Notes under the pieces: model-generated
What the model was told of the DNA's origin: nothing
What the model saw: only the letters and a program-made list of their open reading frames with translations
Databases searched by the model: none
Program-made: the position numbers and the translations under genes
Part shown: positions 6,621 to 23,767 of the stretch, one piece after another
How the letters are laid out: the number at the start of each line of letters is the position of its first letter
Position numbering within the stretch: the stretch's first letter is position 1
Origin: Gemmatimonas sp.
GTDB taxonomy: Bacteria > Gemmatimonadota > Gemmatimonadetes > Gemmatimonadales > Gemmatimonadaceae
DNA: 43,003 nucleotides
Direction: 5' to 3'
NCBI GenBank assembly: GCA_011390885.1
Contig: JAABRO010000024.1
Span: 1-43,003, forward strand

Positions 6621-6714
6621 CGAAATGACGCGGTACCTTTCGGCGACGCCACACGCGCGGCGCCTTGCACCGCCGTCCTCGTTCCTTCTCCCGAGTCACT
6701 TTCCGCCCGATCCC

Positions 6715-8286
6715 ATGGCCACCCAGACCGCACTGCGTCCCGGCGAAATCAAGGACATCCTGCTTCGTGAAATCGAGGCCGCCGACCTGAACGAACTCGA
6801 CATCGACGAAGTCGGGACCGTGCTCGAGGTGAAGGACGGCATCGCCCGCATCTACGGCCTCGGCAAGGTCATGGCCGGCGAAATGCTCGAGATCACCTCG
6901 TCGGAGACGGGCGAGCGCATCACGGGCCTCGCGCTCAACCTCGAAGAAGACAACATCGGCGCCGTCATCCTGGGCGATTACCTCAAGCTCAAGGAAGGCG
7001 ACGAGGCGCGCAGCACCGGCCGCGTGCTCGAAGTGCCGGTCGGCCCCGAACTCATCGGCCGCGTCGTCGATCCGCTCGGCCGCCCCATCGACGGCCTCGG
7101 CGACATCAACGCCACGACCACGCGCAAGGTGGAATCGCCGGCCCCCGGCATCATCGTGCGTCAGCCCGTGAAGGAGCCCCTCCAGACGGGCATCAAGGCC
7201 ATCGACAGCATGATCCCGATCGGCCGCGGCCAGCGCGAGCTCATCATCGGCGACCGCGCCACCGGCAAGACCGCCATCGCGATCGACACGATCATCAACC
7301 AGAAGGGCCAGGGCGTGATCTGCGTGTACGTCGCGATCGGCCAGAAGGCCTCGACGATCGCCGGCGTGGTGGACCGCCTCAAGGAAGCGGGCGCGATGGA
7401 GTACACCATCGTCGTGGCCGCCTCCGCCTCCGACCCGGCGCCGATGCTCTACATCGCCCCCTACTCGGGGTGCTCGATGGCCGAGTACTTCATGTACAAC
7501 GAGGGCAAGCCCACGCTGTGCGTGTACGACGACCTCTCCAAGCAGGCCGCCGCGTATCGCCAGCTGTCGCTCGTGCTGCGTCGTCCGCCGGGCCGCGAAG
7601 CGTATCCGGGTGACGTGTTCTACCTCCACTCGCGCCTGCTCGAGCGCGCGGCCAAGCTGCGCGAGGACGAGGGCGTGGTGGACGGCGTGAACATCCTCAA
7701 GCCGGGCGGGTCGCTCACCGCGCTCCCGATCATCGAGACGCAGGCCGGCGACGTGTCCGCGTACATCCCGACCAACGTCATCTCGATCACCGACGGCCAG
7801 ATCTTCCTCGAGACCGACCTCTTCAACGCCGGCGTCCGTCCGGCCGTGAACGTGGGCATCTCGGTGTCGCGCGTGGGTGGCTCGGCGCAGACCAAGGCCA
7901 TGAAGGGCGTGGCCGGCCGTCTCCGCCTCGACCTCGCACAGTTCCGCGAACTCGAAGCCTTCTCGGCCTTCGCCTCCGACCTCGACGCGGCCACCAAGCG
8001 CCAGCTCGAGCGCGGCGCGCGCACGGTCGAGATCCTCAAGCAGGGGCAGTACCAGCCGCTCCCCGTGGAGCAGCAGGTCACGGTCATCTACGCGGTGACC
8101 AACGGCTACCTCGACGGCATCGACACGAGCCGCGTGCGCGAGTGGGAGACGGGCTTCCACACGTACATGAAGGCGCAGTTCCCGCAGGTGGGCGACACGA
8201 TCCGCACGAGCAAGGCGCTGTCCAAGGAGACGGAAGCCGACCTCAAGCGCGGCATCGAGGCCTACAACGCGCAGTTCGCCAAGTAA
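6715..8286 (+). CDS. atpA: F1Fo ATP synthase subunit alpha
   Basis: A 523-residue non-catalytic nucleotide-binding subunit of the F1 head; three copies alternate with beta in the cytosolic part of the ATP synthase. The sequence is highly typical: [28 protein letters not shown], the P-loop GDRATGKT (179-186), [17 protein letters not shown] and [39 protein letters not shown] (shown in parts: the start [10 protein letters not shown] and the end HSRLLERA). The ATG at 6715 begins the usual N-terminus ([19 protein letters not shown]), but it has no Shine-Dalgarno sequence. An in-frame ATG at 6625 would add 30 residues rich in Arg, Pro and Ser that the family lacks. First gene of an alpha-gamma-beta-epsilon operon; the delta gene that usually precedes it is missing. 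Confidence 0.98.
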
Positions 8287-8298
8287 GCGCCGCCTGAC

Positions 8299-9162
8299 AT
8301 GGCCAAGGGACGCGAACTCAAGGGTCGCATCAAGTCCGTCGAGAACACGCGCAAGATCACGCGCACGATGGAAATGGTGGCGGCCAGCAAGATGAAGCGG
8401 GCGACCGACCGCGTGGCGGCGGCGCGCCCGTACGCGCTGGCGCTCGGCGACGTTCTCGCGCGCCTCGTGCGGCCGGACATCGCGGAGCGGTTCCCGCTCC
8501 TGCGCCAGCCCGCCACGAAGCGTCGCGTGGCGCTCGTGCTGCTCACCGCGAATCGCGGGCTGTGCGGCGCGTTCAACACCAACCTCATTCGCGAGGCGCG
8601 TGCGCGCATCGCCGAGCTCGAGGCGCAGGGCGCGACGGTCGAGCTGCACATCGTGGGCAAGAAGGGCATCGCGTTCTTCAAGTACCTCGGCCGCGCCATC
8701 GACTCGGAGCGCATCGACATCGGCGACCGCCCGTCGGCGACGGATGCGGCGAGCCTCATCGACCGGCTCACCGATCGCTTTGCGAAGGGCGAGCTCGACG
8801 CGGTGTACATCACGTATGCGAAGTTCAAGTCGGCGCTCTCCACGCCGCCGGCCACCGAGCAGGTGGTGCCGGTGGTGCCGCCGGCCACGCAGGGCACGCC
8901 GCGCGACTTCCTGCTCGCGCCGAGCGCCGACGTGATCGTGGAGGCCCTGCTGCCGGCGTACGTGCGCAACATGGTGTACCGCGCGCTGGTGGAAACGGTG
9001 GCCGGCGAGCAGAGTGCGCGCCGCACCGCCATGAAGAACGCCACGGACAACGCGAGCGACATGCTCACGCTGCTCAAGCGCACGTACAACTCCGCGCGCC
9101 AGGCGCAGATCACGCAGGAAATCGCCGAGATCGTCGGCGGCGCCTCGGCGCTGCAGGGCTGA
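8299..9162 (+). CDS. atpG: F1Fo ATP synthase subunit gamma
   Basis: The 287-residue central-shaft subunit, whose rotation inside the alpha3beta3 ring drives catalysis. Both family signatures are present: the N-terminal coiled-coil start KGRIKSVENTRKITRTMEMV with AASKMKRA, and the C-terminal helix ARRTAMKNATDNASDM followed by YNSARQAQITQEIAEIVGGA. The middle has the Rossmann-like part LVLLTANRGLCGAFNTNL. Its ATG lies 12 nt after atpA with no obvious ribosome-binding sequence, so translation may depend on coupling. Confidence 0.98.
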   Translation: MAKGRELKGRIKSVENTRKITRTMEMVAASKMKRATDRVAAARPYALALGDVLARLVRPDIAERFPLLRQPATKRRVALVLLTANRGLCGAFNTNLIREARARIAELEAQGATVELHIVGKKGIAFFKYLGRAIDSERIDIGDRPSATDAASLIDRLTDRFAKGELDAVYITYAKFKSALSTPPATEQVVPVVPPATQGTPRDFLLAPSADVIVEALLPAYVRNMVYRALVETVAGEQSARRTAMKNATDNASDMLTLLKRTYNSARQAQITQEIAEIVGGASALQG

Positions 9163-9176
9163 TCGCGGGTTCGTGA

Positions 9177-10655
<1,479 letters not shown>

Positions 10656-10662
10656 GGATCAC

Positions 10663-10926
10663 GTGGCCGGCGCACTGCAGGTCTCGGTGATCTCACCGGA
10701 GCAGGTGTTGTACGAAGGCGCGGCGTCGTCGGTGACGGCGCCGGCGTTCGACGGCGAGCTGGGCATCCTGCCCATGCATGCGCCGCTCATGACGCTGCTG
10801 GGCACCGGCACGCTCCGCGTCGAGTCCACCGAGGGGCTGAAGCGGTTCCGCGTGTCGGGCGGCTTCCTGCAGGTGGTCGATGACACGGTGCGCGTGGTGA
10901 CCGAAGAGGCCAGCGCGGAAGGCTGA
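10663..10926 (+). CDS. atpC: F1Fo ATP synthase subunit epsilon, short form
   Basis: An 87-residue epsilon subunit with a GTG start, 7 nt after atpD. It has the complete N-terminal beta-sandwich (VISPEQVLYEGAASSVTAPAFDGELGILPMHAPLMTLL, here given by its start VISPEQVLYEG and the key GELGILPMHAP), which binds gamma and the c-ring. The chain stops after VVTEEA: the two C-terminal helices (about 45 residues in E. coli) that inhibit ATP hydrolysis are absent. The stop is followed closely by the operon terminator, so the short form appears genuine and not a frameshift. Regulation of ATPase activity must therefore differ from the classic epsilon mechanism. Confidence 0.95.
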   Translation: MAGALQVSVISPEQVLYEGAASSVTAPAFDGELGILPMHAPLMTLLGTGTLRVESTEGLKRFRVSGGFLQVVDDTVRVVTEEASAEG

Positions 10927-13727: not shown

Positions 13728-14083
13728 GTTTGTCCCCGAAGTCCCGCCGAAAGTTCCACTCGGATCGCGCTGACGCGCTCCGTGCATCCCGATAGCAGAT
13801 CCGCGAGTCCTGGCGCCGTGCTGGCGACGGACTCGCCTTCGAAGTCACGACGGTCCGTGCGTTCGCGCCCGGGCGGTCGTACTGGAACCGGTGGCGCCGT
13901 GTGGCGTGGCCGGATCCGACAGGCGGTGCGTCCGTAGCGGTGTCCACCCTGGGCACCGGGACGCCCCACAGGAAGTGGCAGCAGTCGGTCGGAGCGTTCG
14001 CGCGGGAGATCGCGAGCGGTTCGGGCCTGCGGCTGTTTCCGGTGTGCTCCACTCCTGCGCGTTTTCTTCAAAGGAGGGTTGGG
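13678..14083 (+). other. Long 5' leader of the SusC/SusD operon (no gene seen)
   Basis: The 654 nt between waaA and susC hold no convincing gene. From the predicted start near 13678 the leader would be about 406 nt, far longer than needed. It contains the palindrome at 13712-13727 and several GC-rich segments that could pair, and it ends in the strong ribosome-binding sequence AAAGGAGG (14070-14077). I recognise no known riboswitch class. Confidence 0.4.
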
Positions 14084-17000
14084 ATGACGTATCTGGTCGG
14101 GGGACTGCGGTGGATGGCCCGCAAGAGCGTGGCCTTCGGACTCGCATTGGCTACCCTCGCCCCATTGGCGGTGCAGGCCCAGCAGCAGGCGACCCTCACG
14201 GGTCGCGTCACGGATGAAGGCGGACAGCCGCTCGACGGCGCGACGATCTTCATTGCGGAGCTGAATACGGGTGGCCTCACGAACGCTCAGGGGCGGTACT
14301 CCATCGTGATTCCGGCGGCGCGCGTGCGCGGCCAGGAAGTCACGGTGCAGGCGCGTTTCATCGGCTACACGGCCGTGTCGCAGCGCATCACGCTGTCGGG
14401 CGGGTCGATCGAGACCAACTTCACGCTCAAGCAGGACGTCAATCGCCTGAGCCAGGTCGTGGTGACCGGCGTGACGGGCGCCACCGAAGTGAAGAAGCTG
14501 GCCTTCACGGTGGCCCAGGTCTCGGCGGCCGACATGCCGGTGGCCGGCGCGAATCCGCTGTCGCAGCTGCAGGGCAAGGTGCCGGGCGCGAACATCGTGT
14601 CGGCCTCGGGCCGTCCCGGTAGCGCGCCGGCCGTGATCCTGCGTGGCCCCCAGTCGCTGAACGCCAGCGGCCGCGGTCAGGACCCACTGTACATCATCGA
14701 CGGCGTGGTCTCGCAGGGTGGCCTGCAGGACATCAACCCGCAGGACATCGAGAACATCGAGGTCGTGAAGGGTGCCGCCGCCGCCTCGCTCTACGGCTCG
14801 CGGGCCGGCAACGGCGTGATCAACATCACGACGCGCAACGGCAAGTCCGGCTCGGAGGGCGTGCGTTTCCGCACCCAGATGGAAGTCGGCACGCAGAGCC
14901 TGGAAAACGAGTACGAGTTCCCCACCACGCACTTCATGACGATGAATGAAACGATGGATCGTTTCTGCATCGTCGTGTCCGGGGCGCAGCGCTGCGCGCG
15001 CACCATGGACCTCGGCGTGGAAGCGCTGCGCATCAACAACACGGCCGACGTGAACCCGCTGCCGGCGCAGAACATCGACAACGATGCCGGCATCGCCCGC
15101 AACCCGGGCGCGACGACCCTGCGCTCGCTGTACCAGGTGAACCGCTACCCGCTCGCCGGCAACCCGGTGCGCCAGGTGCTCACCAACGGCCAGACGTGGA
15201 ACGGCACGGTGGACGCCACGGGCCGCATCGGCAAGACGAACTTCTTTGCGTCGCTCAACCAGCTGCGCCAGGAAGGCGCCGTGAAGTTCGCCAACGGCTA
15301 CAACCGCAACTCGGTGCGTCTGAACCTCGACCACCAGTTCGGCAACGACGTGGACCTGCAGTTCCGCACCTCGTACAGCGAGGCCTCGGACTGGAACACG
15401 GGCGGTGCCTGGTTCCGCGTGACGCGCCAGCCGGCCAACGCCGACCTGCTGCGCCGCGACGACCAGGGGCGCCTGTTCATCCGCACGGTCGTGCAGCAGC
15501 AGGGGTCGCAGAACGACAACCCGCTGTACAGCTTCGAGAACTTCCGTCCGCTCAACCGCATCAGCCGCTTCGTGGGCTCGCTCAACCTGCGTTGGCGCCC
15601 GCTGACGTGGCTCGACGCCGAAGCGCAGTACGGCTACGACGGCCGCTCGGACTTCCAGGAAGCGCAGCAGGATCGCGGCTTCCGCACGATTCCGAATGCG
15701 CCGGCGACGAACCTCGGCAACATCGATCGCGATGCCGCCCGCTCGAACTCGTCGAACGCCTCGCTCAACGTGACGGCGCGCCGCAGCTGGTTCGATGACG
15801 CGTTCAACACGCGCCTCACGCTGCGCTACCTGTACGAAGAGCAGAACAGCATCAGCCAGGTCAGCGAAGGCGAGCAGCTCGCCGTGCCGGGCCTGCGCGA
15901 CCCGAATGCCGCGATCACGAACTTCGCCATCGGCGGTGGCGAGAGCTCGGTGCGCCAGATCGGCATGTTCTCCAACCTCGACCTCGACTACAAGGGCCGC
16001 TACATCATCGGCGCCCTCGTCCGTCGCGACGCGGCGTCGCTCTTCGGTTCGGCCAACCGCTGGCAGACCTACGGCCGCGTCTCCGCCGCCTGGCGCCTGT
16101 CCGACGAGCCGTGGTTCAACGTGCCGATGTTCTCCGACCTGAAGTTCCGCGCCTCGCGCGGTACGGCCGGCAACCGCCCCACGTTCTCGGCGCAGTACGA
16201 GACCTTCACGATCGGCGCCGGCGGCGCGCTCAACCCGGCCACGCTGGGCAACAAGGCGCTGCGTCCGGAGATCTCCACCGAGACCGAAATCGGTGTCGAC
16301 ATGGAGCTCTTCAGCAAGTACGGCCTCACGGTCACGAACGCGAAGAACATCATCAACGACCAGCTGCTCCAGGTGCCGCCGCCGGCCATCGCCGGCTTCA
16401 CCAACCAGTGGATCAACGCGGGCGAGCTCACGAACAACACGTGGGAAGTCAGCCTGCGCATCCCGGTGATCTCGCGCGCGGACCTGAACTACTCGGTGCA
16501 GCTGAACTACGACCAGACCTCGTCGCTGATCTCGCGCCTGGACGTGCCGGAGTACTTCAACTCCGCCGCCGGCCAGCAGGGTTCGGGCACGATGTTCAAG
16601 ATCGTGCAGGGCGGCGGCTTCGGTCAGATCTACGGCCGCAAGTTCGTGCGTGAGTGCTCGGAACTGCCGGCCGCGTTCGCCTCGCAGTGCGGCGGCGCGG
16701 GCTCCAACTACCAGCGGAACAGCGATGGCCTCATCGTGTGGACCGGTGGCGCGGGGCTCGGCGAAGGCATCACGAAGAACCTGTGGATGACGGCCCTCCC
16801 GGCGGCCGACGCCCCCTGGGGCAACCAGACGCTGAACTGGGGCCTGCCCATCATCTTCCGCGACTCGACCGGCAGCGCGCCGGTGCTCCCCGTGGGCAAT
16901 GCGCTTCCGCGCTACCGCTGGTCGATGGCCAACAACTTCGGCTGGAAGCGCCTGACCGCCTATGCCCTCTTCGACGCCACGATCGGCAAGAGCGTCTGGA

Positions 17001-17419
17001 ACATCGGCCGTCAGTGGTCGCTCGGCGACTTCATGCACAGCGAGACGGACCAGATCGGTGCGACGGTCGAGACCGCCCGTCCGATCGGCTACTACTGGCG
17101 CGCGCAGGCCCCCACCTCGGTGGGCATCGGTGGCCTGTACGACGTGCTGGCTCCGAACAACAACACGGTGGAAGACGCGGGCTTCGTGAAGCTGCGTGAA
17201 GTGACGCTGGGCTACCGCATCGGCAGCGTGGCGGGCTTCGGTGACTGGACGGCCTCGGTGATCGGCCGCAACCTGCTCACCTGGTCCAGCTATCGCGGCT
17301 TCGACCCCGAAGTGGGGATCGGTGGTGGTGCCCTCGGCTCGGGCGTGCTGAATGCGATCGACGCGTTCGGCTTCCCGAACCTGCGCCAGTTCACCTTCTC
17401 GGTCAGCACCAGCTTCTGA
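14084..17419 (+). CDS. SusC/RagA-type TonB-dependent outer-membrane receptor
   Basis: A 1111-residue outer-membrane active transporter. Signal peptide to about residue 32 (cleavage near VQA-QQQ); carboxypeptidase-regulatory-like domain at 36-117 (LTGRVTDEGGQPLDGATIFI ... GRYSIVIP); plug domain at about 140-250 with QLQGKVPGANIV, RGPQSLNASG, DPLYIIDGVV, INPQDIENIEVVKGAAAASL and YGSRAGNGVINITTR; then a large barrel ending in FTFSVSTSF, with terminal phenylalanine as expected for BAM-inserted barrels. The leading regulatory domain plus the LYIIDGVV plug defines the SusC/RagA class, which works with a SusD partner, here the next gene. An excellent AAAGGAGG ribosome-binding sequence fixes the start at 14084; earlier in-frame codons have no signal peptide. 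The imported substrate is unknown: no glycan-degrading enzyme lies nearby. Confidence 0.95.
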   Translation: MTYLVGGLRWMARKSVAFGLALATLAPLAVQAQQQATLTGRVTDEGGQPLDGATIFIAELNTGGLTNAQGRYSIVIPAARVRGQEVTVQARFIGYTAVSQRITLSGGSIETNFTLKQDVNRLSQVVVTGVTGATEVKKLAFTVAQVSAADMPVAGANPLSQLQGKVPGANIVSASGRPGSAPAVILRGPQSLNASGRGQDPLYIIDGVVSQGGLQDINPQDIENIEVVKGAAAASLYGSRAGNGVINITTRNGKSGSEGVRFRTQMEVGTQSLENEYEFPTTHFMTMNETMDRFCIVVSGAQRCARTMDLGVEALRINNTADVNPLPAQNIDNDAGIARNPGATTLRSLYQVNRYPLAGNPVRQVLTNGQTWNGTVDATGRIGKTNFFASLNQLRQEGAVKFANGYNRNSVRLNLDHQFGNDVDLQFRTSYSEASDWNTGGAWFRVTRQPANADLLRRDDQGRLFIRTVVQQQGSQNDNPLYSFENFRPLNRISRFVGSLNLRWRPLTWLDAEAQYGYDGRSDFQEAQQDRGFRTIPNAPATNLGNIDRDAARSNSSNASLNVTARRSWFDDAFNTRLTLRYLYEEQNSISQVSEGEQLAVPGLRDPNAAITNFAIGGGESSVRQIGMFSNLDLDYKGRYIIGALVRRDAASLFGSANRWQTYGRVSAAWRLSDEPWFNVPMFSDLKFRASRGTAGNRPTFSAQYETFTIGAGGALNPATLGNKALRPEISTETEIGVDMELFSKYGLTVTNAKNIINDQLLQVPPPAIAGFTNQWINAGELTNNTWEVSLRIPVISRADLNYSVQLNYDQTSSLISRLDVPEYFNSAAGQQGSGTMFKIVQGGGFGQIYGRKFVRECSELPAAFASQCGGAGSNYQRNSDGLIVWTGGAGLGEGITKNLWMTALPAADAPWGNQTLNWGLPIIFRDSTGSAPVLPVGNALPRYRWSMANNFGWKRLTAYALFDATIGKSVWNIGRQWSLGDFMHSETDQIGATVETARPIGYYWRAQAPTSVGIGGLYDVLAPNNNTVEDAGFVKLREVTLGYRIGSVAGFGDWTASVIGRNLLTWSSYRGFDPEVGIGGGALGSGVLNAIDAFGFPNLRQFTFSVSTSF

Positions 17420-17482: not shown

Positions 17483-19117
17483 ATGCGCAAGCATTCCATT
17501 CTTTTCAGTGGCCTCCTCGCCGTCGGACTGTCCGGCTGCGTCGGTGACCGCCTGAGCGTGACGAACCTCAACAATCCGGACGTGGAGCGCGCCTTTGCGA
17601 CCCCGGACGGCATCGAGGGCGTCATCGCCGGCCTCGGCGTGCAGCTCAACGGTCCGCAGCGTGCGTCCGAATCGGCCAACACGCAGGCCAAGATCTTTGC
17701 CGGCGAGAACTTCGCCACGGTCAACAACTTCGGCATGGCGCCGCGCACGATCGTGCCGCGCGGCCCGCTGTCGAACGAACTCGGCAACGACATCCAGACC
17801 GGCAACCTCGCCAACTACAACTCGTTCCAGCGCATCGCGCGCTCGGCGAACAACGGCATTCGTGCCGTCAACCGACTGATCGAGAACGGCTCCACGCTCG
17901 GATCGCCGGCCCAGAATGCACGTGCCAAGGCGTTCGCGTTCATGATCCTCGGGCAGGCGCTCGGCTACGTGTCGTTCGGTTACGACTCGGCCGCCATCGT
18001 CACGCCGACCATCCCGTCCGACTCGGTGACGCCGCTCGCCGGCGCCGCCGAGGTGAACGCCGCGGCCGTGGCGATGCTCGACTCGGCGATCGCGATCGCC
18101 ACCTCGGCCGAGGCGACCAGCGGTTCGAACGGCTTCCCGCTGCCAGCCACCTGGCTCAGCGGTTCGTCGTACTCGCGCGACCAGTTCGTGCGCCTGGCGC
18201 GTTCCTATCGGGCGCGCATCCGTGCCGGTGCCGCGCGTACGCCGGCGCAGCGGGCGGCGGTGAACTGGCAGGCCGTGATCGCCGATGCCACCAACGGCAT
18301 CACCACCGATCACACCGTGCAGCTCGATCCGTCCCTCGGCTGGGCGGCCGGCTATGACGCCCAGCAGATGTACGTGGTGGGCGGATGGCACCAGCTGCCG
18401 ATGTGGTACCTGGGCATGGCCGACACCACCGGCGCGTATGATGCGTGGCTCGCCGTGGCGCGTGACAGCCGCGAAGGCTTCCTCGTGCGCACGCCGGACA
18501 CGCGCTGGCCCTCGGGCAACACGCGTGCGGAGCAGCAGGCCAAGCAGAGCGGCCTCGTGCCGCCGCCGGGTGTCTACATCCGCAACCGTCCCACCAGCGA
18601 AGACGTGGACGGATCGGGCTGGGGCTTCTCCCAGTATGAACACCGTCGCTACGGTGCAACGCGTGTCGCCGGCAACGTGGGGCCGTACACCGACATGTCG
18701 GCCACCGAGATCAGCATGCTGGCGGCGGAAGGCTACATCCGCACCAACCAGCTCCCGCAGGCCATCGCGCTGATCAACGAGAGCCGCGTCCGCAACGGCC
18801 TGGCGCCGATCCCGGCCGGTACGTCGGCCACGCAGCCGATCGGCACGCTGCCGAACTGCGTGCCGCGTGTGCCGCAGGCGCCGAACTTCACCACTACGGC
18901 CTGCGGCACCGTGCTCGAGGCCATGAAGTACGAGAAGCGCATGGAGACGGCCTTCACTGGCTACATGATCTGGTACACGGACAACCGCGGCTGGGGCGAC
19001 ATGATCGCCACGACCCCGCTGGAGTGGCCGGTGCCGTACCAGGAAATGCAGGCGCGCCAGAAGCCGTTCTACAATGGCACCCTGCAGGCGCCCCTCGGCA
19101 CCTACGGCTTCCAGTGA
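17483..19117 (+). CDS. SusD/RagB-type substrate-binding lipoprotein
   Basis: A 544-residue outer-membrane lipoprotein that would act as the lid and ligand-binding partner of the SusC-like receptor. Lipobox GLSGC with Cys19 follows a short signal peptide; LSVTNLNNPDVERAFATPDG is a typical SusD beginning (the family has a conserved NPxxxx early segment). Helical TPR-like pieces follow: FMILGQALGYVSFGYD, FVRLARSYRARIRAGA, EISMLAAEGYIRTNQLPQAI with ALINESRVRNG, and MKYEKRMETAFTGYMIWYTDNRGWGDM near the end, where SusD proteins have E-x-R-E-L/F and W-D-x-x-R motifs. Start at ATG 17483 with GGGAG upstream. The stop overlaps the next start (TGATG). Confidence 0.9.
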   Translation: MRKHSILFSGLLAVGLSGCVGDRLSVTNLNNPDVERAFATPDGIEGVIAGLGVQLNGPQRASESANTQAKIFAGENFATVNNFGMAPRTIVPRGPLSNELGNDIQTGNLANYNSFQRIARSANNGIRAVNRLIENGSTLGSPAQNARAKAFAFMILGQALGYVSFGYDSAAIVTPTIPSDSVTPLAGAAEVNAAAVAMLDSAIAIATSAEATSGSNGFPLPATWLSGSSYSRDQFVRLARSYRARIRAGAARTPAQRAAVNWQAVIADATNGITTDHTVQLDPSLGWAAGYDAQQMYVVGGWHQLPMWYLGMADTTGAYDAWLAVARDSREGFLVRTPDTRWPSGNTRAEQQAKQSGLVPPPGVYIRNRPTSEDVDGSGWGFSQYEHRRYGATRVAGNVGPYTDMSATEISMLAAEGYIRTNQLPQAIALINESRVRNGLAPIPAGTSATQPIGTLPNCVPRVPQAPNFTTTACGTVLEAMKYEKRMETAFTGYMIWYTDNRGWGDMIATTPLEWPVPYQEMQARQKPFYNGTLQAPLGTYGFQ

Positions 19118-19653
19118 TGCACACGCCTTCCCACCGGGGCGCGCGCATGCGGCGCCGGGCTGTCTCAATGCTGTGCGCGGTCACGTTCGCGCTCCAGTGG
19201 GGATGCTATACGTATCTTCCTGTGCAGTCGGCACCGCCTCCTCCGCAGCAGCGGGGCGCGGTCGTGCTGAACGATCAGGGACGTCTCGTGCTCGGTGAGC
19301 GACTCGGTGCGCTCATCGATCGCGTGGAAGGCACGTTCGTTTCGCATGACTCCACCGGTGTGGTGCTCGAGGTCTCGGGCACGAAGGACCTGCGAGGCGG
19401 GTCCTCGCTCTGGTCGGGCGAACGGGTCGAGATTCCGGCCAGCGCGATTCTGGGTTACCGGGAGCGCCAGCTCTCGAAGACCAGGTCGTTCCTGCTCGGC
19501 GGCGCCGTCACGGCGTTGATCGCGGTGGCTACCTTCGGCCTCTCGCTCGACCTGTTCGGGGATGATCCGTCGGAAGGTGACACGGTCAACCCGCGCCCCA
19601 TCGGTGATGGTGAACTCAGTTTTCGCGGACGCGTCCCCGTGACGCTTCCCTGA
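19117..19653 (+). CDS. Small lipoprotein with a beta-rich domain and one membrane segment
   Basis: A 178-residue product whose ATG shares a base with the susD stop, so translation is coupled. An Arg-rich start and hydrophobic core lead to the lipobox LQWGC (Cys30). Residues 47-120 alternate as short strands (GAVVLNDQGRLVLGE, IDRVEGTFVSHDSTGVVLEV, GERVEIPASAILGYRER), then a hydrophobic segment (SFLLGGAVTALIAVATFGLSL, about residues 125-145) and a polar tail. A lipid anchor plus a membrane-spanning segment is odd; the second hydrophobic stretch may pack against a partner. No known family was recognised. Its place suggests an accessory part of the SusC/SusD system. Confidence 0.65.
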   Translation: MHTPSHRGARMRRRAVSMLCAVTFALQWGCYTYLPVQSAPPPPQQRGAVVLNDQGRLVLGERLGALIDRVEGTFVSHDSTGVVLEVSGTKDLRGGSSLWSGERVEIPASAILGYRERQLSKTRSFLLGGAVTALIAVATFGLSLDLFGDDPSEGDTVNPRPIGDGELSFRGRVPVTLP

Positions 19654-19691: not shown

Positions 19692-20525
19692 ATGAGGCTT
19701 TCACGGTTCGGATTGATCGCTGTGGCTGCATTGGCCACCGTCGCCTGCCAATCGGACGACGGCGCGCTGAAGCCCACAGAGCTTCCGCCGCTCGCATTCG
19801 TGCGGTACATCAACGCTCTTCCCGATACGCTCGCCACGACGGTGCGCTTCATCGACCAGGTGGAGTTCTCGCCGCAGACGTGGTCCGCTGTGCCGTTCCG
19901 CGGGCTTGGTGGCGGCAACTATCAGGGCACGCAGGCGGGCAACCGCTCTTTCCGCGTGTTCAGCTTCACCTCGAACGCGTCGACGGCCGGCAACACGGCC
20001 GTGCTGGGCGAGGCCACGCACAACTTCGAAGCCGGCAAGTACTACACGGTGCTGCACGTCGGCTTTGCGCGACCGGGTGGCAACCCCGCCAACCAGATCC
20101 GCATCATCGAAGATGCCGTGCCCACGCCGGGTGCGCAGATCGCGATTCGCGGCCTGCACGCCGGGTCCGGCATCGGCAACGTGGACGTGTACCTGACGCC
20201 GACCACGACCTCGCCGATCTCCGGTTCGCCGGCGATCCCGGGGCTCGCCTTCGGCACGGCATCCAACTATGCCACGCTCGCACCGGGCGCCTTCGCGGTG
20301 CGCGTCACGGCCGCGGGCAGCACCACCCCGCTGATCAGTGCAGCGGCGCCTGCCGGAACGGCCGGTACCACCGCGGCTGATCCGATCTCCGGTGCGACGA
20401 TCCCCGGCTCGGTGCTCACGGCCGTCGCCTTCCCGTCGTCGGTCAGCGGCTCGTCCGCCACGTCGTCGGCGAATCCGTCGGTGCTGTTCTTCATCGATCG
20501 CAATCCGCCCCGTACGACCCCGTAA
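19692..20525 (+). CDS. DUF4397-type lipoprotein
   Basis: A 277-residue lipoprotein: signal peptide MRLSRFGLIAVAALATVAC with Cys19. The mature chain has the DUF4397 pattern: LAFVRYINALPDTLATTVRFID (shown as VRYINALPDT), FRGLGGGNYQG, a repeat-like GNRSFRVF, FEAGKYYTVLHVGFA, and then VDVYLTPTTTSPISGSPAIP followed by YATLAPGAFAVRVTAAGS. These are two Ig-like beta-sandwich repeats found in surface proteins; the molecular role is not known. The C-terminal third is Ala/Ser/Thr/Gly-rich. An AAGGAG sequence lies upstream of the ATG. Probably co-transcribed with susC and susD. Confidence 0.8.
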   Translation: MRLSRFGLIAVAALATVACQSDDGALKPTELPPLAFVRYINALPDTLATTVRFIDQVEFSPQTWSAVPFRGLGGGNYQGTQAGNRSFRVFSFTSNASTAGNTAVLGEATHNFEAGKYYTVLHVGFARPGGNPANQIRIIEDAVPTPGAQIAIRGLHAGSGIGNVDVYLTPTTTSPISGSPAIPGLAFGTASNYATLAPGAFAVRVTAAGSTTPLISAAAPAGTAGTTAADPISGATIPGSVLTAVAFPSSVSGSSATSSANPSVLFFIDRNPPRTTP

Positions 20526-20526
20526 C

Positions 20527-21300
20527 ATGTTCTGGTCGACAGACCGGAGTTCCCGCGACCGCGGCGTGCCCTGCACGTCCGCGGTCGTGGTGCTTTTGGC
20601 ACTGTCGCTACTCGGTTCCGATGTCGACGCCCAAGTGCTCCGCGGCACCGTGCGCATGCGGGACGATTCGATCGCGGTGGACGGCGCACGGGTCGTGGCG
20701 GAAGACCGCGCGGGCAACGCGATCGGCAATGCCACCACCGACGAGGCGGGCCGCTACTTTCTGCGACTGAGCGCCAAGGCCGGCGCGCCGTTCCGGTTGC
20801 TCGTCACCCGGATCGGCCTGCGCCCCACGATGTCCGACGAGTTCACCCTCGCGCTCTCTGACACGGTGAACGCCGACATCTTCGTGCGCGTCCTGCCGGA
20901 AATGCTGGAAGAGGTGAGCAGCACCGCCGATCCGTCGCTCAATACCCGTCGCTTCGAGTACGCACGCCGACGCGGCTGGCGCGTGTTCGACCCGGCGACC
21001 ATCGAGTCACGTCGGGCGTCCTCCCCGGGGCTCAACGAACTGCTGCGGTCGCTTGGCGCGCCCGGCCTGCTCGTGCCACAGCGTCCGGGGGACTGCGTGA
21101 AGACCACGCGCACCGGCCAGTGTCTCGCCGTGGTGCTCGACAACGTCCTGGTGAGTGGCGGCGTGCACATCAATCCGCGCGACATCTACTTCCTCGCCAT
21201 CGTGGGATCATCCGATGCGCGCCTCGAATGGGGCGATCGCGCCTCGTACGGCGCGCTCGCCATCTACACGCGCATGTACGGAGATCCGCGGCGGCCCTGA
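20527..21300 (+). CDS. Secreted protein with carboxypeptidase-regulatory and TonB-plug-like domains but no barrel
   Basis: The 257-residue product starts 1 nt after the DUF4397 gene. A signal peptide ends near VDA-QVLRG. Residues 37-115 form a carboxypeptidase-regulatory-like beta domain (VLRGTVRMRDDSIAVDGARV ... GRYFLRLSAKAGAPFRLLV). Residues 150-255 resemble the plug of TonB-dependent receptors: GLNELLRSLGAPGLLV, a Cys-Cys loop (DCVKTTRTGQC), LAVVLDNVLVSGG in place of the LYIIDGVV strand, INPRDIYFLAIVGSSDA and YGALAIYTR where receptors have YGxxAxNGVIxITTR. The chain then ends, with no barrel. A gene remnant is possible, but the frame is intact and compact. It may interact with the SusC barrel or with TonB. 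Confidence 0.7.
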   Translation: MFWSTDRSSRDRGVPCTSAVVVLLALSLLGSDVDAQVLRGTVRMRDDSIAVDGARVVAEDRAGNAIGNATTDEAGRYFLRLSAKAGAPFRLLVTRIGLRPTMSDEFTLALSDTVNADIFVRVLPEMLEEVSSTADPSLNTRRFEYARRRGWRVFDPATIESRRASSPGLNELLRSLGAPGLLVPQRPGDCVKTTRTGQCLAVVLDNVLVSGGVHINPRDIYFLAIVGSSDARLEWGDRASYGALAIYTRMYGDPRRP

Positions 21301-21355: not shown

Positions 21356-22225
21356 ATGCGAATCCATTCCCGCGCTCTCCCGACCGCCAGCCGTTCGCGC
21401 GTGCTCGCGGCGCTGACGCTGGCGCTGTCGATCGGACTGCCGACAGCTGGCGCAAGCGCCCAGCCGCCGGCGTTGCCCGCGCCACGCGGCTATGTGAACG
21501 ACTTTGCCAACGTGCTGTCGGCCGATGCCGCGCGCGAGCTCGAGTCGGTCGCGCGCATCGTGCAGACGCGCTCCGGCGGCGAGATCGCCGTGGTCACGCT
21601 CCCGGACCTGGGCGGACGCCCGGTCGAGGAGACCGCGCTGCGCCTTGGCCGCGAGTGGGGCGTGGGCGCCCAGGCCAACGTCGGCGACGCGCGGCGCAAC
21701 GCCGGTACGGTCATCCTGCTCGTGCCCAAGGAAACGAGCGCCGACAATCGGGGGTACTGCCGGATCGAGACCGGCATGGGCGCCGAAGGCTTCATCACCG
21801 ATGCCGAGGCGGGGAGCATCTGCCGCGCGGCCACCGATCGCTTTCGGGTGGCCGACTATTCCAGCGGTCTGCTGATCGTGACCTCGGCCGTGGCCGAGGC
21901 GTACGCGCGGGAGTTCGGCTTCGCGATCGCCGATGGCGAGTTGCCGGTGCAGTCGCGCGGGCGCGCACGCGGACGGGAGCCCGGGGGCTCCCTCGTCGGC
22001 GTGATCGTGCTGTTCCTGATCATCATGTGGCTCTCGAGCCGGGGGCGAGGCAGTGGCTGCCTGCCGTTCATGGTGGCGACCACGATGTCGGGCCCGCGAC
22101 ACGGCGGTTACCACGGCGGGTTCGGCGGTGGCTTCGGTGGAGGTGGCTTCGGCGGTGGTGGCGGTTTCGGCGGGTTCGGTGGCGGTGGTGGCTTCGGCGG
22201 CGGCGGCGGTGGATCCAGCTGGTAG
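21356..22225 (+). CDS. TPM-domain (YgcG-like) membrane protein with glycine-rich tail
   Basis: A 289-residue protein: signal peptide to about residue 35 (GASA-QPP), then the TPM domain at about 38-180, opening with GYVNDFANVLSADAARELES and containing GGEIAVVTLPDLGG, VILLVPKE and the GAEGFITDAEAG segment. One membrane helix follows (LVGVIVLFLIIMWLSS), and the last 45 residues are Gly/Phe repeats ending in SSW. This is the classic YgcG layout. TPM proteins sit in the periplasm on a membrane anchor and often occur next to lemA, as here (one gene between). Roles in membrane-protein quality control have been proposed for related proteins. A TACATT at 21343-21348 ends 7 nt before the ATG and could be a -10 element for a leaderless message. 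Confidence 0.88.
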   Translation: MRIHSRALPTASRSRVLAALTLALSIGLPTAGASAQPPALPAPRGYVNDFANVLSADAARELESVARIVQTRSGGEIAVVTLPDLGGRPVEETALRLGREWGVGAQANVGDARRNAGTVILLVPKETSADNRGYCRIETGMGAEGFITDAEAGSICRAATDRFRVADYSSGLLIVTSAVAEAYAREFGFAIADGELPVQSRGRARGREPGGSLVGVIVLFLIIMWLSSRGRGSGCLPFMVATTMSGPRHGGYHGGFGGGFGGGGFGGGGGFGGFGGGGGFGGGGGGSSW

Positions 22226-23140: not shown

Positions 23141-23767
23141 ATGCTTCGCGTCCCGACTCGTGAAACCACGACCACCCGCCGCCCCGCGCGCCTGCGTGGA
23201 TTCGCGCGCGCGGTTCTGCTGCTCGCGCTGCCGATGTCGCTCGGCGCCTGCGGCTACAACACCATCCAGACGTACGACGAGGCCGCCGCGTCGGCGCAGC
23301 GAAACATCGAGGTGCAGTTGCAGCGCCGCGCCGACCTCATTCCCAACCTCGTGGAAACGGTGAAGGGCTTCGCTGCGCAGGAAAGCGAGGTGCTCACGCA
23401 GGTGACCGAAGCGCGCGCCGGCCTGCAGGGCGCGCTCTCGCGCACGGGCGGGGCCGACATGAGCGAGCTCGCCGCGGCCAACGCCGGGCTCACCTCGGCG
23501 CTCGGCCGGCTGAGCGTGGTGGTGGAGGCGTACCCCGACCTCAAGTCGAACGAGAACTTCCTGCGGCTGCAGGATGAACTCACCGGCACCGAGAACCGGA
23601 TCGCCGTCTCGCGCACCGACTACAACGGCGCGGTGGAGACGTACAACGCCTACATCCGCCGCTTCCCCGCCGTGCTCACGGCCAAGGTGACGGGTGCGAA
23701 GGCGCGCGAGTACTTCGAAGCCGACGCCGGCGCGCGCGAGGCGCCGAAGGTCGACTTCAGCAAGTAG
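23141..23767 (+). CDS. lemA: LemA family lipoprotein
   Basis: A 208-residue protein with an Arg-rich start, hydrophobic core and lipobox SLGAC (Cys37). It then has the LemA pattern of long antiparallel helices: YNTIQTYDEAAASAQRNIEV, QLQRRADLIPNLVETVKGFA, EVLTQVTEARAG, LGRLSVVVEAYPDLKSNENF with LRLQDELTGTENRIAVSRTD and YNGAVETYNAYIRRFPAVL. The RRADLIPNLVETVKG and YPDLKSNENFLRLQ motifs are diagnostic. LemA proteins are anchored periplasmic helical bundles of uncertain role. Most family members have an N-terminal membrane helix; the lipobox here suggests lipid anchoring. A GGAG lies 7 nt upstream of the ATG. The gene ends the operon before a hairpin. Confidence 0.93.
   Translation: MLRVPTRETTTTRRPARLRGFARAVLLLALPMSLGACGYNTIQTYDEAAASAQRNIEVQLQRRADLIPNLVETVKGFAAQESEVLTQVTEARAGLQGALSRTGGADMSELAAANAGLTSALGRLSVVVEAYPDLKSNENFLRLQDELTGTENRIAVSRTDYNGAVETYNAYIRRFPAVLTAKVTGAKAREYFEADAGAREAPKVDFSK

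Follow-up and report, generated by a model that had tools for sequence, protein, structure and literature searches.

TonB-dependent transporters of the SusC/RagA type, such as BT1763, begin with an N-terminal half in which an N-terminal extension (NTE; PF13715/PF13620) is followed by a TonB box and a plug (PF07715). The signalling transporters FecA, FoxA and FpvA also carry a periplasmic domain ahead of the plug, but this STN domain has another fold and lies within a full receptor (excerpts of PMC7782687 and PMC11658791, from which the cited background here is drawn). We describe a protein encoded at positions 20,527 to 21,300 of a 43,003-nucleotide stretch of Gemmatimonas sp. DNA (contig JAABRO010000024.1 of assembly GCA_011390885.1; hereafter the window), which consists of a signal peptide, a carboxypeptidase-D-like domain, a loose linker and a plug, and which has no barrel. 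This plug protein shares the domain order and predicted folds of the SusC/RagA N-terminal half but differs in lacking the barrel and the Lys-Gly (K-G) motif, in having a Cys-Cys hairpin in place of a longer loop, and in a TonB box that, judged by sequence pattern, appears degenerate or absent. It can be read as a known domain pair that has been freed from its barrel, probably stapled, and fixed into a transporter cassette. Literature searches turned up no work on stand-alone plug proteins or on a cassette of SusC, SusD-like, lipoprotein, DUF4397 and plug genes, and we know of no description of a barrel-less NTE-plug anatomy. As the best explanation of the data as a whole we propose, tentatively and at somewhat less than even confidence, that the plug protein is a disulfide-stapled periplasmic accessory of the neighbouring SusCD transporter. 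Much more confidence attaches to the anatomy than to the function, for which both partner and action are inferred.

The ATG of the plug gene lies one base after the stop codon of the upstream DUF4397 gene, and the frame ends eight residues past a YTR motif, at the point where the barrel would begin (Table 1). The Ala-Gln junction at the end of the signal peptide is nearly invariant in an alignment of 21 relatives, and the mature product would be a soluble periplasmic protein. PF13620 (CarboxypepD_reg) is the sole Pfam family above cut-off; an NCBIfam search gave no match to the barrel receptor family TIGR04056, and a Pfam search found no M56 peptidase domain.

The C-terminal part has to be identified through relatives and models. 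Neither Pfam nor NCBIfam reports a Plug hit for the window sequence alone, and phmmer against the PDB returned only weak nucleoporin matches and no plug; among the 21 relatives, Plug rises above the Pfam gathering cut-off in two (best E 0.016), with the window protein below it. A search of its own genome with the plug protein matches the plug of the SusC gene (14573-14836, E 4.4e-4), and the 21-member profile aligns over both domains, in order, with the SusC homologue 5t3r (profile 23-239 to SusC 26-231, whole-sequence E 9.2e-9). Profile-profile comparison of the plug part (12 sequences) with 18 cassette SusC plugs gave a probability of 96% and an E of 2.3e-9 over 79 columns, and the core motifs of SusC plugs are present in the plug protein as invariant columns of the 21-row alignment. 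An AlphaFold2 model of the mature protein, built from a 12-row alignment, has a mean predicted local distance difference test score (pLDDT) of 74.6, falling below 50 in the linker (mature residues 88-101). Foldseek with the whole model returned first-domain matches, mostly transthyretin-like, and did not show the plug. VIA-align placed the second half of the model on the Fiu plug (9a3c, an entry that is a model rather than a crystal structure; Z 10.3, root mean square deviation (rmsd) 2.8, 105 aligned) and on the plug of the SusC BT1763 (Z 9.4, rmsd 2.5, 100 aligned), and model residues 1-91 on the NTE of the SusC BT3090 (SusCdex, 9hfj; Z 9.4, rmsd 2.5, 77 aligned), the first half also resembling other transthyretin-like domains. 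When the plug part was modelled alone from the 12-row alignment, pLDDT was 82.5 and the predicted template modelling score 0.78, with mean pLDDT running from 82.5 down to 55.9 across the five models. The best 50 Foldseek matches of this model in the PDB are all TonB-dependent transporters, the best E being only 1.3e-3, and VIA-align again ranks Fiu first (Z 8.4, rmsd 3.2, 107 aligned). Judged by these profiles and predicted models, the C-terminal part has the plug fold of TonB-dependent transporters and not an unrelated one. An earlier note, made from the letters of the window, had read here the order of SusC N-terminal domains without a barrel; PF13620, the profiles, the models and the end of the frame after the plug all bear this out.

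The note had also pointed to an added Cys-Cys loop, which proves to be conserved in relatives and absent from SusC plugs. The mature window protein has two cysteines, C190 and C199, both invariant in 21 of 21 aligned relatives. Exactly two are present in 39 of 40 mature relatives (where the mature start was unrecognised, in seven rows, the last 225 residues or the whole of a shorter frame were counted); the lone four-Cys row, L119, comes from a short frame that does not align in its first part. Their spacing in the 40 is 8 in 29 rows, 15 in seven, 9 in two and 16 in one, with one row missed by the search pattern. No cysteine occurs in any of the 44 cassette SusC plugs that could be excised from 47 frames (L094 and L099 were missed by the pattern and L106 was dropped), and among 20 transporter plugs of the window genome, several of them partial cut-outs, one has a single cysteine. 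The isolated FepA plug behaved as unfolded (excerpt of PMC11658791), so a plug without a surrounding barrel would have to be stabilised in some other way. A disulfide staple enabling the plug to stand alone is the natural and likely reading of the cysteine pair, the bond itself being presumed.

Twenty-five other small Gemmatimonadota proteins (L066-L080, L082-L085 and L127-L130; L081 was dropped as it has no plug) likewise combine one or more regulatory-like domains with a C-terminal plug, have no barrel and carry paired cysteines within the plug. Two or more cysteines occur in the last 150 residues of every one, although 21 of the 25 were found with a plug-family profile that itself contains the Cys columns. 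Two placements, assigned by eye, can be told apart: 14 of the 25 are hairpin-like, as in the cassette plug protein, whereas the other 11 differ from it. In L071 the cysteines are 44 residues apart. The 4-7 kb fetched around the 20 loci L066-L085 revealed no further SusC/SusD gene. Four of these proteins lie in the window genome (L127:1477-3036 (-), L128:1925-3481 (-), L129:493-2160 (+) and L130:634-1362 (+)); each has one or more CarboxypepD_reg domains and a plug-like C-terminal part, with the Cys pair before a DG strand and before the last strand, and two of the four pass the Pfam Plug cut-off. Contig C3 of the same genome encodes an M56/BlaR1-type peptidase with C-terminal Plug modules (L126:514-2172 (+); M56 E 8.8e-20, Plug E 1.3e-13). 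It resembles the plug protein in having a plug without a barrel but differs in carrying its own peptidase domain and in having no cysteine in its plug modules. With this exception, the contrast in cysteines between SusC plugs and barrel-less plugs hints at what allows a plug to exist on its own.

At E <= 1e-5 the plug protein has matches in 118 of the 179 genomes of the window's family (its own included), many of them to the first domain alone; the 62 best rows, nearly all covering both domains, fall in 55 of the 179. A phylum-wide search, in which up to six candidates per genome were scored, found matches at E <= 1e-6 in 367 of 395 genomes; beyond the family, the matches listed are mostly to the regulatory domain, and among those listed all better than E 1e-50 belong to the window's own family. 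A plasmid search gave no match at E 1e-3. In the 40 cassette relatives the frame continues for 2 to 29 residues past the last strand, and close pairs are under purifying selection at the codon level (dN/dS 0.05-0.23 by NG86 in 26 pairs more than 70% identical, among 19 sequences). The window genome holds a second copy on contig C7 (L131:2583-3431 (+), the L035 locus), 36% identical and with the Cys pair, around which no SusC/SusD was found in the 20 kb fetched. At L046 a tandem second plug gene (10139-10801 (+)) stands right after the first, ahead of the TPM gene.

The plug gene is the last member of a recurrent cassette (Table 1). In a survey of 20 neighbourhoods, picked from strong plug-protein rows, the SusD-like, small lipoprotein, DUF4397 and plug genes stand in that order at 19, with SusC in front at 18; at L036 the contig starts inside the SusD-like gene and SusC is cut off, and the exception to the order is L035, the contig C7 paralogue. 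The note had suggested looking for the same arrangement in other genomes, and 50 of the 62 plug rows do directly follow a DUF4397 match on the same strand. Among the other 12, three start within 125 bases of a contig start, six are own-genus paralogues with neither SusC nor SusD in the stretches fetched and two lie in genome G158 (the one inspected is without SusC or SusD); genome G119 has SusC, SusD-like, lipoprotein and plug genes but no DUF4397 match (L117:623-6760 (+)). Seen from the other side, a plug gene follows each of the best 32 DUF4397 matches and 49 of 117 overall.

Table 1. Features of the plug protein and its cassette in the window.
Feature	Position	Strand	Basis or remark
SusC-type TonB-dependent transporter, complete with NTE, TonB box, plug and barrel	13901..17419	+	TIGR04056 E 3.6e-143; Plug E 2.9e-16; coordinates are those of the open reading frame (ORF), true start probably further in
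SusD-like lipoprotein	17483..19117	+	Position; lipobox LSGC by eye; PF07980 in 3/11 orthologues
Small cassette lipoprotein, lipobox LQWGC by eye	19147..19653	+	No Pfam family above cut-off
DUF4397 protein, directly upstream of the plug gene	19692..20525	+	PF14344 E 4e-18
Barrel-less plug protein	20527..21300	+	257 aa; ORF, domain matches, profiles, models
Sec-type signal peptide ending ..DVDA/QVLRG	20527..20631	+	Read from sequence; by eye, no lipobox
CarboxypepD_reg / NTE-type domain, residues 38-118	20638..20880	+	PF13620 E 1.8e-9; model match to SusCdex NTE
Flexible linker at the place of SusC's TonB box, holds EEVSSTADPS	20893..20934	+	pLDDT <50
Plug domain, residues about 139-250, loop shortened	20941..21276	+	Profiles and models
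Cys190-x8-Cys199 hairpin, probable disulfide staple	21094..21123	+	Cys conservation in relatives
TPM-domain protein, common downstream neighbour	21359..22225	+	PF04536 E 9.6e-22
LemA-family protein, common downstream neighbour	23144..23767	+	PF04011 E 9.2e-58

The note had placed the gene beside a SusC/SusD pair. The SusC stands on its TIGR04056 match, while its partner can only be called SusD-like: searches of Pfam (E 0.1) and NCBIfam (E 0.01) with the window member gave no hit, the three orthologues that match PF07980 do so with a best E of 3.3e-6, and the SusD-like profile has one match in the PDB (E 0.076) and no clear relative there.

Trees of the transporter and of the plugs bear on how the plug gene came to the cassette. 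Of 46 cassette SusCs placed on a tree, 32 have a plug gene, and 31 of these form one clade (support 100 in the Shimodaira-Hasegawa-like approximate likelihood ratio test), with the 14 plug-less ones outside it; the odd plug-positive SusC, L117, is a long branch. This tree was quick, without a mixture model, with long branches flagged at L117, L090 and L093 and the fragment L106 dropped; the plug row of L099 was left out of the cassette analysis, as its own SusC lies outside the stretch. Distances between SusCs correlate with those between their plug proteins (rho 0.65 over 33 loci, L106 included), and none of 2000 permutations gave a value as high; a correlation of this kind is expected where two genes have descended together. 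In a tree of 62 plugs all 39 barrel-less plugs stand apart from the 23 barrel-bound ones (support 95/89), and the cassette-family plug proteins form one group (100/99) that joins other barrel-less plugs whose cysteines are hairpin-like (98/90). This tree rests on 134 columns, there are long branches, one join is flagged as doubtful, and the plug-family profile was the source of 21 of the 25 other barrel-less rows. A comparison of origins by profile score was inconsistent: in the reverse direction, the plug-protein profile scores SusC plugs at a median of 29.4 bits and other barrel-less plugs at 19.2, in a test that is partly circular, since L066-L085 were chosen as hits of the plug-family profile. 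From these sequences the plug protein looks like a member of a barrel-less lineage in Gemmatimonadota that joined the cassette, probably once, and not like a trimmed copy of the adjacent SusC.

What the protein does in this setting can be framed by what is described of SusCD transporters. Their entire plug can be lost from the closed, empty barrel in vitro, extraction of the plug by TonB has been proposed while the details of its resetting are called unclear, and deletion of the NTE in BT1763 left no detectable growth (excerpts of PMC7782687). We propose that the plug protein is a secreted, free-standing copy of the periplasmic half of SusC (NTE-type domain, linker and plug fold), which would be held together outside a barrel by the Cys-Cys hairpin that takes the place of a longer loop in SusC. 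It would have been recruited to the end of the SusC, SusD-like, lipoprotein and DUF4397 uptake cassette, to be inherited with the transporter from then on, and would act by its likeness to SusC's own gate: docking at the periplasmic mouth, or on the NTE and plug of SusC, while TonB has pulled the plug out, it may assist in receiving, shielding or resetting the displaced plug. In a bolder form, which we consider unlikely, the SusCD transporters of the Gemmatimonas family would carry a second, free plug, a stapled protein standing in for, receiving or resetting the transporter's own plug in each cycle. How SusCD keeps the outer membrane sealed with the plug out, and how the plug is restored, is an open question for which the plug protein would be a concrete candidate handler. 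If the bolder form is true, it would be a dedicated plug-handling factor, and our literature searches turned up none for any TonB-dependent transporter. The protein may also be a regulator of the receptor, the note's third suggestion, which lies near the accessory proposed here.

A number of points weigh against such an accessory role. The authors who observed spontaneous plug loss deem it likely to be non-physiological and caused by detergent (excerpt of PMC7782687). The correlation between SusC and plug-protein distances is below those between SusC and the SusD-like protein (0.80) and between SusC and DUF4397 (0.75); species descent accounts for part of it, and neither co-inheritance nor linkage is proof of contact. 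Of the 117 DUF4397 rows, 68 are followed by no plug row from among the 62 best, to which the count is confined, and some of the 68 are cut short where their contigs end. All 14 plug-less loci that were fetched keep SusC, SusD-like and DUF4397 genes, and 13 of them the small lipoprotein as well. Downstream at these loci nothing stood out as plug-like; L098 has a weak profile match following DUF4397, which failed the base-composition filter. Plug-less SusC cassettes are thus common, and the transporter therefore does not need the plug protein in general. A Cys pair is also present in barrel-less plug proteins encoded away from SusC. Finally, six own-genus paralogues, including one in the window genome, lie away from any SusC/SusD found, and therefore the copy of this kind in the window genome must do something else.

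One alternative, which we regard as improbable, turns on the linker: as a modulator or decoy for TonB, the protein would use it as a TonB box and compete for, store or hand over TonB near the transporter. A loose VxVx[AG] motif does stand at the place of the TonB box in 28 of the 40 relatives, the activity of TonB boxes is said in a review to depend less on single side chains than on local secondary structure (excerpt of PMC11658791), and the window genome has five TonB_C matches, two of them in one frame. The strict SusC-type box, however, is found in only two of the 40 plug proteins (three of which, L045, L106 and L122, had their linkers misread by the script) as against 40 of 46 SusCs, and close variants of it stand in the remaining six. 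It is absent from the window protein, which, with L036 and L037 of the same genus, lacks even the loose form. These counts weaken the note's suggestion of a decoy for TonB.

It is equally doubtful that the protein is a periplasmic ligand-binding or scaffold protein whose plug fold is unrelated to TonB transport, binding for example the imported substrate or a cell-wall partner, and whose place in the cassette reflects shared regulation. The existence of barrel-less Cys-pair plug proteins away from SusC, and of Plug modules on an M56 peptidase, would fit this idea; the tight linkage to a single cassette type, across a clade of SusCs, argues against it.

Less probable still is an exchangeable or spare plug that enters the SusC barrel or seals barrels whose plug is out, also raised by the note. 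Separate FhuA plug and barrel were reportedly found to assemble in vivo by Braun and co-workers in 2003. The plug fold, by sequence and model, and the loss of whole plugs from SusC barrels in vitro (excerpt of PMC7782687) would favour such an exchange, but the cassette SusC has its own plug, and the plug protein has a shortened, probably stapled loop between its cysteines. Moreover, the K-G found shortly before the YG turn in 43 of 44 SusC plugs is missing from all 39 plug proteins that could be read at this point (one of the 40 was not read). The retained plug of SusC and the loss of K-G make the note's suggestion less attractive.

That the gene is a truncated, decaying SusC receptor copy is almost certainly wrong: its domain order is that of a SusC N-terminus, but its short length is conserved in relatives, purifying selection is seen between close pairs, it groups apart from SusC plugs and it keeps a conserved gene place. 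The note had allowed for a broken copy if homologues were full-length receptors; the homologues found are short, and most of them lie in the same order of genes. A pseudogene of the neighbouring SusC was likewise rejected, the closest kin not being full-length receptors and selection not being relaxed.

Some features of the surrounding DNA may be added. TPM, nucleotidyltransferase-like and LemA genes lie downstream in 17 of 19 cassette neighbourhoods; a special linkage of the plug gene to these fixed downstream genes was rejected, since the same genes occur at six of the 14 plug-less loci. A promoter scan of the locus gave two promoter-like sites, 13643 (+, upstream of SusC) and 19589 (-), where 0.6 were expected, and a terminator scan one terminator-like site, 20464, inside the DUF4397 gene, where 3.9 were expected; the scans are uninformative. 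The small lipoprotein (19147-19653 (+)) shows a mean column identity of 47% over 10 aligned sequences and ends in a C-terminal hydrophobic stretch. At L099:1182-14073 (+), two more sets of SusC, SusD-like and DUF4397 genes, both without a plug gene match, follow a plug-positive cassette in tandem. Upstream of the cassette, the window carries genes for V/A-type-like ATP synthase subunits (6625-10652 (+)).
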